A stretch of DNA of 64,000 nt from assembly GCA_021604865.1 (NCBI GenBank), contig BQJU01000001.1:124001-188000 (forward strand). Reading direction: 5' to 3'. The notes beneath the pieces were generated by a model that was not told the origin of the DNA, did no database searches, and worked only from the letters and a program-made list of their open reading frames with translations. The DNA is from Saprospiraceae bacterium. Lineage in GTDB: Bacteria > Bacteroidota > Bacteroidia > Chitinophagales > Saprospiraceae. Shown piece by piece: positions 3,316 to 37,930 of this stretch (the first letter of the stretch is position 1; every line of letters begins with the position of its first letter). The position numbers and the translations under genes were made by a program.

Positions 3316-4995
3316 TTACCGATTTATCACATTCTTAAACCGAGGTCTCTTAGGTGCTACATCTCCCAATTTCGCCTTCTTCACTTCTTCATATTGGGAG
3401 TAGTTGCCTTCAAAGAAAACCACCTCTGCTTCATCCTCAAAAGAGAGGATATGGGTAGCCAGGCGGTCAATAAACCAGCGGTCGTGAGAGATGACCAGCA
3501 CGCAGCCGGCAAAATTGTCGAGTGCATCTTCCAGGGCGCGTAAGGTATTGATATCAATATCGTTGGTTGGTTCATCAAGCAGCAGTACATTACCTCCTTC
3601 ACGCAGGGTCATAGCCAGGTGTAGCCGGTTGCGCTCCCCACCGGAGAGCACGCCAACCTTCTTCTGCTGATCTGCACCGGCAAAATTAAAACGACTCAGA
3701 TATGCCCGAGCATTGACGGTAGCATTGCCGATCTGGATAAAGTCATTACCTTCCGAGACCACGTCGTATACCGTTTTTTCGCTATGCTGCAGCTGCTCGT
3801 GGCTTTGGTCTACATAGGAAAGCTCTACGGTGTTGCCAATAGTTACTTCGCCTTTATCTGGTTTTTCAAGGCCCATAACCATACGAAAGAGGGTACTTTT
3901 TCCCACGCCGTTTGGCCCTATGATGCCGACGATGGCATTTTTGGGGATGCTGAACGTGAGGTTTTCAAACAATAGGCGGTCGCCAAATCCCTTGGTCAGG
4001 TTTTCGACATCAATCACCACATCGCCTAAACGTGAGCCGGGAGGGATGTAGAGTTCTAGCTTGGCCTCCTGTGCTTTGGCCTCTTCACCGGCTAGTTTAT
4101 CATAAGCATTCAGACGAGCCTTCCCTTTGGATTGGCGGGCTTTCGGAGCCATACGTATCCATTCCAACTCCCGTTCCAGTGTTTTGCGCCGTTTAGTAGT
4201 CGTTTTTTCTTCCATTTCCAGGCGTTTGGCTTTTTGTTCCAGCCAGGAAGAGTAGTTGCCCTCCCAGGGGATGCCCTCGCCACGGTCTAACTCGAGTATC
4301 CAGCCTGCCACATTATCGAGGAAGTACCGATCGTGGGTCACGGCAATCACCGTGCCGGGGAAATTTTTCAGGTATTGCTCCAGCCAGTCTACCGATTCGG
4401 CATCCAGGTGGTTAGTAGGTTCATCCAGTAGCAAAATATCAGGATTGCTCAGCAACAGCCGTGCCAGGGCTACCCGGCGACGCTCCCCACCCGACAGCAC
4501 TTTAACCGATGCATCATCCGGCGGACAACGCAAGGCTTCCATAGCTGTATTCAGGCGATTATCGAGTTCCCAGGCATTATGGTGGTCCAATTGTTCCATC
4601 ATTTCTCCCTGCTTTTCGATCAACTTATTCATCTCATCATCGCTCATCGGCTCCGAAAACTTGAGGTTGATCTCCTCGTAGGCGGCCATCAAGTCTACAA
4701 TTTCCTGCACGCCCTCTTCTACTACCTGGCGTACCGTTTTGCTTTCGTCCAGTTTTGGTTCCTGCTCCAGTAGTCCGATCTTGTAGCTACCGTCAAAACT
4801 GATGCGCCCCTCATAGTTGGGGTCTTGTCCAGCAATGATTTTCAGTAAAGTCGATTTTCCTGAGCCATTGAGGCCGAGCACACCGATTTTGGCTCCATAA
4901 AAGAAGCTGAGCCAAATATTATTGAGCACCTTCTTGCTCGGAGGAAAGGTCTTTGATACCCCCTCCATCGAAAAGATTACTTTATGGTCCGACAT
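3316..4995 (-). CDS. ettA: Energy-dependent translational throttle protein EttA (ABC-F ATPase)
   Basis: Soluble ABC-F ATPase that binds the ribosomal E site and gates entry into elongation according to energy state. The 559 residues match EttA length (about 555). Two ABC domains are visible: Walker A GLNGSGKST at residues 41-49 with signature LSGGERRRVALA, and a second Walker A GPNGVGKST with signature LSGGERNRLHLA. The inter-domain linker is basic (KTTTKRRKTLERELEW), as expected for the P-site tRNA interaction motif. No transmembrane segment is present. The start ATG follows a consensus -7 box (5015-5022) by about 20 nt. It is upstream of mfd in the same direction. Confidence 0.95.
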   Translation of the reverse strand: MSDHKVIFSMEGVSKTFPPSKKVLNNIWLSFFYGAKIGVLGLNGSGKSTLLKIIAGQDPNYEGRISFDGSYKIGLLEQEPKLDESKTVRQVVEEGVQEIVDLMAAYEEINLKFSEPMSDDEMNKLIEKQGEMMEQLDHHNAWELDNRLNTAMEALRCPPDDASVKVLSGGERRRVALARLLLSNPDILLLDEPTNHLDAESVDWLEQYLKNFPGTVIAVTHDRYFLDNVAGWILELDRGEGIPWEGNYSSWLEQKAKRLEMEEKTTTKRRKTLERELEWIRMAPKARQSKGKARLNAYDKLAGEEAKAQEAKLELYIPPGSRLGDVVIDVENLTKGFGDRLLFENLTFSIPKNAIVGIIGPNGVGKSTLFRMVMGLEKPDKGEVTIGNTVELSYVDQSHEQLQHSEKTVYDVVSEGNDFIQIGNATVNARAYLSRFNFAGADQQKKVGVLSGGERNRLHLAMTLREGGNVLLLDEPTNDIDINTLRALEDALDNFAGCVLVISHDRWFIDRLATHILSFEDEAEVVFFEGNYSQYEEVKKAKLGDVAPKRPRFKNVINR

Positions 4996-5014
4996 AAATC
5001 TTCGTTTTAGGCCC

Positions 5015-5022
5015 CAAATATA
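5015..5022 (-). promoter_or_regulatory. Bacteroidota -7 promoter box for ettA
   Basis: TATATTTG on the minus strand matches TAnnTTTG exactly and lies 19 nt upstream of the ettA start, implying a very short leader. Confidence 0.55.
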
Positions 5023-5107
5023 CCCGACATTATTCGAATTGGAAAATTAAAACCACAATCAAATAATCTCGAAATATCCTGGTCTAAAACTGCAACAGTC
5101 GCATAGC

Positions 5108-5872
5108 TTAATTTTTTGCCAATTCTTTCAACATTTTCCGCGCATTATCGTTTTGCGGGTTGAGTTTATATGACTGGCGGTAGTGTTGTACTGCTTTTTC
5201 CTTTTGGTTGGTTTTTAGATAAGCTTCCGCCAAACTGTCGTGAGCATTGGCCGAGCGGGGATTTTGGCGGGTATTGTATTCAAAAGCTTCAATCGCCAAT
5301 TCTGGTTTTTGTTTGCTCATGAAGAAATAGCCTACTTCATTGACCTCCCATTCGCCCATATACACTTCGCTGCCTCGGCTGTTGCTGTGGCTTTGAAATT
5401 CCTGGAAAGCACCATCAATGCCTCCATTTTGGTAGGCTTCTTTCACTACCCTGGCAATATCTGGCAATGGAGGTAATATTTTCACCAGTTCCAGTTCCCA
5501 AGTCAGGTATTCCCCTGGAAGTTTGAGTTTCGACCCACTTTTAGCAGCTGCTTTGAAATCTTCAATAGGAATTTTGAACTTGTACCTGCCATCCTCCCGC
5601 ATCACGCTGAAGGCATTCTGAAAAGGTTGTGATAATTCACTGACAATCTGGTAATCCGGCACACCAATAGCATAGGTGGACACCAATTCCCTGCCATTTT
5701 CATCTACGAGACGATTGTGAGTCAGGGCGGCCTGATCGCTGTTCAATTGGGAACCATGTCCCTCTTTCAGCGTTTCATAAATCCAGCCATTACTGGTTTT
5801 ATTTTGGGCAATGCCAAATCCATAGGCGCTCATCCAGATGAGCAGCACTAGAAAAAGGGGGGATTTTTTCAT
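5108..5872 (-). CDS. Secreted protein with degenerate FKBP-like domain and TPR repeats
   Basis: 254 residues. An N-terminal signal peptide (hydrophobic stretch to about residue 22, cleavage after GIAQ) sends it to the periplasm or outside. Residues about 30-135 resemble an FKBP-type peptidyl-prolyl isomerase fold (YETLKEGHG..., a flap-like FQNAFSVMREDGRYKFKIP, then WELELVKILP), but several active-site aromatics cannot be identified, so catalysis is doubtful. Residues about 175-250 hold two TPR motifs (PELAIEAFEYNTRQNPRSANAH, EKAVQHYRQSYKLNPQNDNA). Role is probably protein-protein contact or chaperoning in the envelope; this is inference. It is followed on the same strand by ettA after a 112-nt gap with its own promoter, so it is likely monocistronic. 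Confidence 0.8.
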   Translation of the reverse strand: MKKSPLFLVLLIWMSAYGFGIAQNKTSNGWIYETLKEGHGSQLNSDQAALTHNRLVDENGRELVSTYAIGVPDYQIVSELSQPFQNAFSVMREDGRYKFKIPIEDFKAAAKSGSKLKLPGEYLTWELELVKILPPLPDIARVVKEAYQNGGIDGAFQEFQSHSNSRGSEVYMGEWEVNEVGYFFMSKQKPELAIEAFEYNTRQNPRSANAHDSLAEAYLKTNQKEKAVQHYRQSYKLNPQNDNARKMLKELAKN

Positions 5873-6237
5873 TTTGTCTGATTTGAAGCGTAAGTAAATA
5901 GCCTTAATAGAAAAAAATACTCTATCGAAATTTAAAATATCATATAAATGTATATAATAATTTGAGAAGGTAAAATATTGCGCTATAGTTTAACTTTTTA
6001 TAAAATTACGGAATGGTGATTTATTGGCGGTCGGAAGGTAATAAACCCGCAATTAATGGGCCATTAGCATGGACAAAGAAGGGGATTTTATTTATTTCTT
6101 CCAAAACTTATTACAGCAAAATTTGCTTGTTTACATTCATTGATCCAATACTCCTACGTTCACCTTCTCACCGCCTCCCTCTTTCGTCGCATGCAATTAA
6201 ACTGTATATTTGCTGCGGACTAATAGCATACCATCAA
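5873..6237. other. AT-rich divergent intergenic region
   Basis: Separates a minus-strand gene from the plus-strand TPR gene. It is strongly AT-rich between about 5900 and 6010. An in-frame extension of the downstream gene runs back to 6013 but lies upstream of the promoter box at 6205, so it is judged non-coding. Apart from that box I see nothing definite. Confidence 0.5.
6205..6212 (+). promoter_or_regulatory. Bacteroidota -7 promoter box
   Basis: TATATTTG matches TAnnTTTG and sits 25 nt before the ATG at 6238. It decides the start of the TPR gene, because earlier in-frame start codons lie upstream of this box. Confidence 0.6.
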
Positions 6238-36126: not shown

Positions 36127-36395
36127 AAATGCCGAGCTAGTAATTAATTACCCTAGCTTCTTGTTCATTTTACTCCACGGGGTTAACAACATTTTCTCTA
36201 TACCCAAACAGGAATTAATTCCTGTCCAAACAAATCCACAAAATTAGGGCCATAAATATATTTATGCCCCTTTCCTGCTTTAAGTCAGCTGCTAACCATT
36301 AGCGCTTCTTGTTTCTAATGAACTAGCCTATCATATAATTCACTAATGCCATTGTAGTGACAGTAATGCTATTTCATTAACTTAAATTCTTGATT

Positions 36396-37184
36396 ATGGT
36401 CCCCCCTAGGAAGTATTATGTATTTCGCGCGGCTACCTCCGTAAGCGAGCTAAAATCCCTTTTGCAACTCCGTTACCGTGGTTATCTTGAGAGTAAATGT
36501 GCCAGTTTGATGCATGAGAATTTGCATGGTCTCGACCTAGATGGTTATGACATGCAGGCTCGGCATTTTGGCTTATTTGAATGTAATGGCCGAACTGAAA
36601 GGCCCATTGGTTACATTCGTTTTGCCCAGGATACTGTGAGCCCACAATTGAAGGAAATCTGGCAACTGTCGATGGGATATCCCGATCTGGTTAACCAGCT
36701 GGAATATAACCCAAATGCACCTTATCCTGTTCTAGGGCATTTGGAAGACTCCGGCCCGGTAAATGATTTTTATAAAAACATTTGCTCGGAAGGCAAATCT
36801 ATGGTAGAAGGCAGCCGTATGGTACTGGATTCAGCTTATCGTTCACTGGGCTTTTCTCGATTTATCATTGAAGCCGCCGTTTCGGTATGTCTATACAGTT
36901 TTGCCTATGATTTCTCTGTATTGGCCTGTGTGCCTAATCACCGTAGGTTTTATGAACGCTTTGGTTTTACGAACTTGCACACCTCGGTCTACGATGATGT
37001 CAAATGTCATATTATGCTCATCACTCAGAACCAGTTGTCGAATCAATTGCGCAACAACTTTGAACAGATGGCAGAAGCCTTCAGTCGTTTTAACGCACTT
37101 TATTATTACCCGAAAGTGGCAGGACAGTACACTCCAATGCCCATTCCGCAACCAATTTTGGACAGGACACCTGTTGTGGCCTGA
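36396..37184 (+). CDS. GNAT-fold acyltransferase resembling N-acyl amino acid synthase FeeM
   Basis: 262 residues from ATG 36396 (MVPPRKYYVFRAATS); a TTG two codons earlier is ignored. Layout matches the autoinducer-synthase-like GNAT branch: LLQLRYRGYLESKC start, HFGLFECNGRTERPIGYIRF central strands, the EGSRMVLDSAYRSLGFSRFI segment equivalent to the acyl-donor site (E-x-S-R-x-V), and VLACVPNHRRFYERFGF, a typical GNAT acetyl/acyl-binding end. FeeM enzymes join a fatty acyl group from acyl-ACP to an amino acid. Substrates here are unknown. A carboxyl methyltransferase follows after 31 nt on the same strand. Confidence 0.6.
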   Translation: MVPPRKYYVFRAATSVSELKSLLQLRYRGYLESKCASLMHENLHGLDLDGYDMQARHFGLFECNGRTERPIGYIRFAQDTVSPQLKEIWQLSMGYPDLVNQLEYNPNAPYPVLGHLEDSGPVNDFYKNICSEGKSMVEGSRMVLDSAYRSLGFSRFIIEAAVSVCLYSFAYDFSVLACVPNHRRFYERFGFTNLHTSVYDDVKCHIMLITQNQLSNQLRNNFEQMAEAFSRFNALYYYPKVAGQYTPMPIPQPILDRTPVVA

Positions 37185-37215
37185 TTTTACTAACAAATAA
37201 AAAGAATTTCAATTT

Positions 37216-37851
37216 ATGAAGAAACAGATTACAGCCCTAGTGTTCCTGGCAATAGCCTTTTGCACTCCCTTAGGATGGAGCCCCGAACTAATAATAAGTA
37301 ATAAAATTCTCTTTCTGATTTTTTACTTCTGGCTAATTTTGACGACTCAGCCGGCGATTGATTTAGCAGAAGCAAGAATAAAAAAAGACACAGACCAATT
37401 TTCCGTATTCATCGTACTAGGGTTTTCGGTTTTTTCGGTAAGTTTCGCAGTATACGAATGGGCATACCTTCTGGAAAAAGAACCTCCCTTAGCTTGGGAG
37501 GTCATTGGTGGCCTGCTGCTGGCAGCAGGATTAGGATTGCGCATCTGGTCAATCCGGATATTGGGTAAATATTTTACGACAACGGTCAAGCAGGTTGATA
37601 ATCATCAATTGGTTACTTCAGGGCCCTATGCTAGCATTAGACACCCCAGTTATTTGGGGGCGTATCTGGCATTTTTAGGTAACGCTGTTTTTCTTGGAGC
37701 CTGGATGGCTGCCGGATTTACCTTTATTTTGATGCTGGTAGCTTATAACATTCGTATAAATGTAGAAGAAAAAACGCTGGTTCAGATTTTTGGAGATCAA
37801 TACCAGCAATATCAAAAGAGAACGAAAAGGCTTCTACCTTATATTTGGTAA
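37216..37851 (+). CDS. Isoprenylcysteine carboxyl methyltransferase-type membrane methyltransferase
   Basis: 211 residues, about five membrane helices (LVFLAIAFCTPLG, ILFLIFYFWLIL, FSVFIVLGFSVFSVSFAVYE, EVIGGLLLAAGLGLRI, LAFLGNAVFLGAWMAAGFTF). The C-terminal SAM-binding core is clear: GPYASIRHPSYLGAY (Arg142, His143, Pro144) and RINVEEKTLVQIFGDQYQQY (Glu184/Glu185), as in ICMT/PEMT relatives that methylate carboxyl or amine groups of lipidic molecules. Prokaryotes do not prenylate proteins in this way, so the acceptor is probably a small lipid. It is paired with the FeeM-like acyltransferase upstream. Confidence 0.85.
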   Translation: MKKQITALVFLAIAFCTPLGWSPELIISNKILFLIFYFWLILTTQPAIDLAEARIKKDTDQFSVFIVLGFSVFSVSFAVYEWAYLLEKEPPLAWEVIGGLLLAAGLGLRIWSIRILGKYFTTTVKQVDNHQLVTSGPYASIRHPSYLGAYLAFLGNAVFLGAWMAAGFTFILMLVAYNIRINVEEKTLVQIFGDQYQQYQKRTKRLLPYIW

Positions 37852-37865
37852 GCGCTTGTTTGAAG

Positions 37866-37930
37866 GGAGCAATGTTGGCGGATTATTTGTTTGGTTTGAC
37901 AAGTAATCCTTCAACATTGCCTCTTTTTTT
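37866..37930. terminator. Bidirectional terminator between methyltransferase and glyA
   Basis: Arms 37866-37885 and 37904-37923 (GGAGCAATGTTGGCGGATTA against TAATCCTTCAACATTGCCTC) pair over about 20 nt with a few mismatches, followed on the plus strand by seven Ts. Confidence 0.7.

Follow-up and report, generated by a model that had tools for sequence, protein, structure and literature searches.

Two adjacent genes in a Saprospiraceae bacterium probably form a two-step pathway that makes an N-acyl amino acid and then converts its carboxyl group to a methyl ester. The genes lie in the 64,000-nt stretch of DNA analysed here (the window) and encode a FeeM-type GNAT and a methyltransferase (MTase) of the ICMT family. 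In the first step, the GNAT, acting through the region around its Glu138, would acylate the amino group of an amino acid with a fatty acyl chain donated by acyl-ACP or acyl-CoA. In the second, the membrane-embedded MTase would transfer a methyl group from S-adenosylmethionine to the carboxylate that this amphiphile still has free. The resulting ester would be neutral and membrane-permeable and would resemble an acyl-homoserine lactone or an N-acyl amino acid methyl ester (NAME). What the pair acts on, which reaction it carries out and what it does for the cell are inferred; it could supply a released signal or a bioactive lipid. The pair is small, conserved and present in cultivable species.

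Re-derived coordinates place both ORFs on the forward strand, 31 nt apart, as the sequence-only reading had stated. The GNAT gene (36396..37184; 262 aa) encodes a predicted N-acyl amino acid synthase, judged from Pfam, AlphaFold2 and structural comparison with Foldseek and VIA. It starts with the ATG at 36396, an in-frame TTG at 36390 being a possible alternative, and its stop codon ends at 37184. The intergenic gap (37185..37215) is followed by the gene for the membrane MTase (37216..37851; 211 aa), a predicted N-acyl amino acid carboxyl O-methyltransferase by its matches to PF04140 and to the solved ICMT 4a2n. A shared terminator had been claimed downstream, and folding of segment 37852-37935 agrees with this: it yields a strong hairpin with a U-tract (37862..37930, forward strand; -38.1 kcal/mol, z -7.8, equalled by 0 of 200 shuffles), the predicted terminator common to both genes. 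A simple terminator scan missed this hairpin because its loop limit was 8 nt. Behind the hairpin lies glyA in convergent orientation. As read from the sequence, the neighbours of the pair are an HMA-like ORF and glyA, and there is neither an O-acyltransferase gene (OlsA/GlsA type) nor a ThiF cyclase among the neighbouring ORFs. The GNAT is present as a single copy in its own 7.97-Mb genome.

We examined conservation with a GNAT profile built from four paired GNATs (threshold 1e-8). It matched 24 of the 398 genomes of the own family, in 15 of 112 genera, and this rarity counts against the pathway. When a profile of four paired MTases was run on the 24 GNAT-bearing genomes, its best match lay directly downstream of a GNAT in 22, always in the same orientation; no MTase is adjacent in G018 and G031, whose GNATs are the weakest of the 24. 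Given this adjacency, the pairing of GNAT and MTase exceeds chance. Across the order, a 22-row GNAT profile matched 7 of 248 genomes drawn, six in the own family and one in another family (G459), where GNAT and MTase overlap by 4 nt. Across the phylum, the GNAT profile matched 5 of 395 genomes drawn, including the own genome. One of these, elsewhere in the phylum (G744, locus L038), has two tandem GNATs followed by one MTase; G617, G677 and G843 gave weak partial GNAT matches followed by an acyltransferase-like gene rather than an MTase. The weak phylum GNATs (L039, L040 and L041) were set aside as another kind, the next ORF being acyltransferase-like and of PlsC type as read from the sequence. 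The pair is therefore kept in Bacteroidota and occurs sporadically outside, which excludes that it exists only here. Species with the FeeM-type pair include Phaeodactylibacter luteus, P. xiamenensis, Lewinella cohaerens and Runella limosa. Within the FeeM-type pairs, GNAT distances and MTase distances are correlated (r 0.83, with the species tree not controlled), as expected of genes inherited together, and 0 of 2000 permutations gave as high a value. A plasmid search gave no GNAT match; its MTase matches were generic, and the best of them (Shinella) had no synthase among the annotated neighbours.

Several loci showed additional features. G413 (L087/L031) has a row of truncated GNAT, MTase and second GNAT. 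A MAG labelled Burkholderiales (L083) carries the GNAT-MTase pair around 4270-6232, for which transfer and a binning error are both possible, and the ORF after the pair starts like the N-terminal extension of the GNAT ORF. At seven loci (L044, L045, L046, L052, L053, L054 and L061), a conserved ORF of ~300 aa lies about 1.2-2.6 kb upstream on the opposite strand; the one copy scanned (L053) had no Pfam match.

The MTase also allowed its partners to be surveyed from the other side. When 84,980 species, each represented by a single genome, were searched with a profile of 24 paired MTases, 247 stretches were found to encode MTase relatives, and the best 80 of the 247 were analysed. Their scores fall into 48 loci at E ≤ 2.9e-66 and, after a gap, 32 loci from 2.9e-46 down. 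In 47 of the 48 top loci among these best 80 of 247, the MTase is immediately preceded by a synthase-like gene in the same orientation, the exception, with no synthase alongside, being L074. The 47 upstream genes comprise 23 of FeeM type and 24 encoding a second type of protein of about 250 aa, which is only partly visible at the contig ends of L055 and L080. The FeeM-type loci occur in Saprospiraceae and relatives, in Runella limosa, and in single MAGs labelled Burkholderiales and Calditrichaeota; these 23 are partly circular, as FeeM-paired MTases went into the profile, and the other two partner classes were unselected. Among the 32 lower-scoring loci, the MTase follows a GH3 synthetase in four, and the remaining 28 lack a partner of any of the three types. 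The GH3-linked MTases are found in MAGs of Kiritimatiellae, Verrucomicrobia and two Lentisphaerae (L090, L095, L099 and L118), with upstream PF03321 matches of 8e-57, 5e-58 and 2e-57 and, at L090, a fragment only (GH3_M, 6e-17). Mapped onto a tree of 81 MTases, the partner labels (three kinds) need 4 changes, compared with a mean of 37.7 after shuffling. The 28 generic MTases branch off together on this tree (support 100/99), and the placement of the four GH3-linked MTases is unsure, their branch being long (length 3.34). ICMT-like MTases thus accompany three different kinds of gene resembling those for amide-forming enzymes.

In L095, L099 and L118, an ORF of the enolase superfamily precedes the GH3-MTase genes (Pfam scan for L099 only). 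The own genome contains four GH3-type ORFs (seven match pieces, on contigs C4, C14, C46 and C91), and the organism may therefore have other routes to N-acyl amino acids or aminolipids.

None of the 20 members of the second-type synthase that were scanned with Pfam gave a match (E ≤ 0.1), NCBIfam yielded a single chance match, and a PDB search with the profile of this synthase returned nothing useful. For its structural model (pLDDT 89), Foldseek placed FeeM nearest and AHL synthases next, and these fill the first 15 places; VIA gave a tie of FeeM (15.7), BjaI (15.6), LasI (15.2) and the generic GNATs 1xeb (15.2) and ElaA (15.0). The link between the two synthase types rests on fold, because a profile-profile comparison gave no usable sequence link (probability 3%, E 0.014). 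By its fold and its neighbours, the second-type synthase is a putative relative of OxzA.

All 24 second-type loci have, behind the MTase, an ORF of >600 aa that fits one common kinase profile. The seven kinases scanned (six from the cassette and one from a relative with no MTase) all carry 7TMR-DISM 7TM and extracellular domains. A response regulator of the 150-aa class is divergent upstream in the 22 second-type loci with enough sequence. In the flanking sequence covered for the 23 FeeM-type and 33 other MTase loci, no 7TM kinase was detected (1e-10) except for a weak generic kinase match 3-6 kb off at L054. A profile of the second-type synthase matched 20 of 248 genomes drawn from the order, and we examined up to 6 kb on each side. 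The kinase follows the synthase in 17 of the 20; of those without it, two lie on contigs that end within 433 nt, and the third, which is the weakest match, has no kinase. The MTase lies between synthase and kinase in 4 of the 20, and ThiF, often as ThiF-nitroreductase, is beside the synthase in 14, a count in which three of the ThiF proteins also built the ThiF profile. The tailoring position in the remaining two genomes holds an FAD-binding oxidase in one and nothing recognised in the other. MTase, ThiF and oxidase vary while synthase and kinase stay; the tailoring enzyme is therefore what changes, and the cassette looks like a signal circuit with a swappable tailoring enzyme. Species with the 7TM-kinase cassette include Sediminibacterium soli, S. 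roseum and Segetibacter aerophilus. In full, the Chitinophagales cassette (the 24 second-type loci, including L043, L056, L060 and L063, and L138-L155) reads as a divergent response regulator, the synthase, ICMT or ThiF(-nitroreductase), a 7TMR-DISM histidine kinase and then a response-regulator/kinase.

In Chitinophagaceae, where a signalling role is plausible, the presence of a 7TM histidine kinase behind the MTase in all 24 loci suggests a signalling circuit not described so far. The proposed circuit consists of an OxzA-like synthase, a methyltransferase, a 7TM receptor kinase and response regulators, and is a concrete candidate for cell-cell signalling in Bacteroidota; the open-licence literature searched showed no such system. 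NAMEs are known from Roseovarius, and a paper of 2024 states that candidate genes for their synthase had not been found (PMC11580390). A bolder proposal, that this MTase subfamily is a missing enzyme of NAME-type biosynthesis and is built into a complete undescribed signalling circuit of the Chitinophagaceae, is one that we put forward tentatively and consider rather unlikely. If it were true, a swap of the tailoring enzyme (ICMT versus ThiF/oxidase) would turn the signal from a methyl ester to an oxazolone with synthase and receptor kept, and the window pair would perform the same chemistry with another synthase.

For the lineage of the window, the evidence for a signal role is thin. The sequence-only reading had proposed a small lipid signal; for the window itself this part was not borne out, as no sensor of the Chitinophagaceae type lies in the flanks covered for any of the 23 FeeM-type loci, and it draws support only from the Chitinophagaceae sister cassette. 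A search of the own genome for a sensor of the Chitinophagaceae type gave kinase-domain matches only, and a receptor may be encoded away from the pair. Only at L079 is the GNAT immediately preceded by a LytTR response regulator, itself behind a large ORF that reads like a sensor kinase. We give somewhat less than an even chance to a product that serves not as a signal but as an antibiotic or as an amino lipid of membrane or surfactant type, a role that would be compatible with the methyl ester pathway. Among related N-acyl amino acids there are both membrane lipids and surfactants (PMC11631085 and PMC4897644), and this role would agree with the lack of a linked Chitinophagaceae-type sensor in FeeM-type loci. 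It is harder to reconcile with the absence of a second acyltransferase of the OlsA/GlsA type beside the window pair; L039, L040 and L041 do have an acyltransferase, but their GNAT is of a different kind. The 7TM kinase of the methylated second-type cassette, present in 24 of 24 loci, also speaks for signalling. As for an antibiotic, N-acyl tyrosine methyl esters were mostly inactive where the acids were active (PMC12479983), and this loss of activity would fit a role other than killing.

The methyl ester pathway depends on where the MTase places its methyl group. FeeM enzymes make N-acyl amino acids (PMC11631085), and OlsH, a GH3 enzyme of bacteria, couples a fatty acid to ornithine to give such a compound (PMC12493201). 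OxzAB, which works on N-acyl Tyr/Phe (PMC10404671), combines ThiF and a flavin oxidase with an acyltransferase of BjaI-like fold, an arrangement to which that of the second-type synthase and ThiF(-nitroreductase) corresponds. In OxzAB, TyzABC and TrzAS generally, the enzymes first make an N-acyl aromatic amino acid and then close a ring through its carboxylate (PMC10404671 and PMC12856293). The product common to the three partner classes would be an N-acyl amino acid whose carboxylate is free. Because the classes share this expected product and the MTase belongs to the ICMT family, we favour carboxyl methylation. The original argument, that the free carboxyl group of an N-acyl amino acid could be methylated by the partner enzyme, is strengthened by the three partner classes.

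The partner had been assigned to a carboxyl-methyltransferase family, and both its PF04140 match and its solved relatives bear this out. The window MTase matches ICMT PF04140 at 7.1e-19 (68.5 bits, cut-off 24) and PEMT PF04191 at 1.7e-16 (61 bits, cut-off 25). The solved ICMT 4a2n is found at 3.3e-14 with the MTase alone and at 2e-24 with the MTase family profile, whose best solved relatives are isoprenylcysteine carboxyl MTases (2e-24 and 1e-23). The protein has about five hydrophobic segments (Kyte-Doolittle), and an R-H-P motif (37639..37647, forward strand) and an E-E motif (37765..37770, forward strand) are invariant in the alignment of 24 of 24 paired MTases. With the NCBIfam equivalog for isoprenylcysteine O-methyltransferase (NF040696), it scores 99 bits, below the cut-off of 160. 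Family membership does not decide between O- and N-methylation, because PEMT also matches and the NF040696 cut-off is not reached; by sequence, ICMT scores above PEMT.

The strongest rival to carboxyl methylation is accordingly an MTase that N-methylates either a phospholipid-like product or a head-group amine, such as that of N-acyl lysine or N-acyl ornithine, to give an N-methylated amino lipid. The PEMT score lies above its own cut-off, and PMC12493201 describes an N-methyltransferase, OlsG, that shares an operon with a GH3-type synthase in Singulisphaera. We nevertheless judge N-methylation improbable: ICMT outscores PEMT, the best solved relatives of the family profile act on carboxyl groups, and the carboxyl-acting ThiF replaces ICMT in the second-type cassette, which points to the carboxylate. 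A shade less probable still is that the MTase acts on a free fatty acid, another lipid or an acyl-chain hydroxyl and that the pair is merely co-regulated. ICMT/PEMT-family proteins with none of the partner types are indeed common (28 of the best 80 of 247), but those 28 are the distant relatives, 47 of the 48 close relatives have a synthase-like partner, and at least three partner classes are seen once the distant GH3 loci are included.

Carboxyl methylation presupposes a first enzyme that makes the N-acyl amino acid. The window GNAT had been described as being of the autoinducer-synthase/FeeM type, and this is supported by its Pfam FeeM match (PF21926, 2.4e-8, 34.4 bits, cut-off 27; GNAT residues 120-203) and by its nearest fold. 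It also matches PF13444 (Acetyltransf_5; 24.1 bits, cut-off 22.4). Autoind_synth PF00765 gave no match at E ≤ 1, and an identity as AHL synthase was set aside on this ground. Among the 23 paired GNATs, Pfam FeeM matches 22, PF13444 also 22 (E ≤ 0.01) and PF00765 one (2.2e-4). A PDB sequence search with the single window GNAT returned nothing useful. Its AlphaFold2 model (pLDDT 92.4) has FeeM 2g0b as the nearest solved fold (Foldseek 1.5e-8; VIA Z 16.7), superposing at 2.8 A over 174 residues with about 17% identity. The VIA runners-up are BjaI (15.3), LasI (15.2) and the generic GNAT SACOL1063 (15.1 over 141 residues).

That the GNAT is an ordinary short-chain acetyltransferase is very improbable: generic GNAT profiles do match it weakly and generic GNAT folds such as SACOL1063 are near, but FeeM tops both fold lists and its profile recognises nearly all of the GNAT relatives, so that neither profile nor fold groups the enzyme with ordinary acetyltransferases. 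An alignment of the 23 paired GNATs shows no variation at Arg26 (codon 36471..36473), Tyr27, Asp52 (36549..36551), Arg75 (36618..36620), Glu138, Arg141 or Gly190; all codons are on the forward strand, and Glu138 and Arg141 are the E and R of an E-x-S-R motif (36807..36818). The region of Glu138, which falls within the FeeM profile match, is the proposed catalytic Glu region because Nas354 and FeeM use a Glu (PMC4897644); the sequence match to 2g0b is confined to its residues 128-165 and gives no residue-level alignment to FeeM Glu95.

Of the known systems, FeeM/NAS (Nas343/Nas354, stieleriacine NAS) is like the window GNAT in its Pfam FeeM match above cut-off, its fold and, as proposed, its conserved Glu region; the window GNAT differs in being paired with an ICMT-family MTase and in its low identity in the structural alignment. 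AHL synthases (LuxI, BjaI, LasI, MesI) belong to the same fold group and share the conserved RY, D, R and E-x-x-R positions, whereas PF00765 is unmatched in the window GNAT and no LuxR-type partner was noted alongside. NAMEs are of the same predicted product class, yet were found in Alphaproteobacteria. For OlsBA/GlsBA and the GH3-type OlsH, PMC11631085 and PMC12493201 describe an amide-forming first enzyme and a lipid amino acid product, as predicted here; OlsBA/GlsBA differs in having O-acylation as its second step, and this aminolipid pathway was set aside for the window pair, which has no O-acyltransferase alongside. Isoprenylcysteine carboxyl methyltransferases (4a2n, 5v7p) share with the window MTase the fold family, the RHP and EE motifs and the membrane-embedded character, in contrast to which the predicted substrate is a small amphiphile rather than a prenylated protein and the NF040696 cut-off is missed. 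In the open-licence literature, we found no description of the GNAT-MTase combination and no paper in which "isoprenylcysteine carboxyl methyltransferase" and "N-acyl amino acid" occur together. OxzAB/TyzABC/TrzAS resemble the window pair in that an N-acyltransferase of AHL-synthase-like fold is followed by a carboxylate-acting enzyme; as described (PMC10404671, PMC12856293), they have a ThiF cyclase and a flavin oxidase where the window has a methyltransferase. The new part is thus a methyltransferase as the second step of a two-step N-acyl amino acid pathway.
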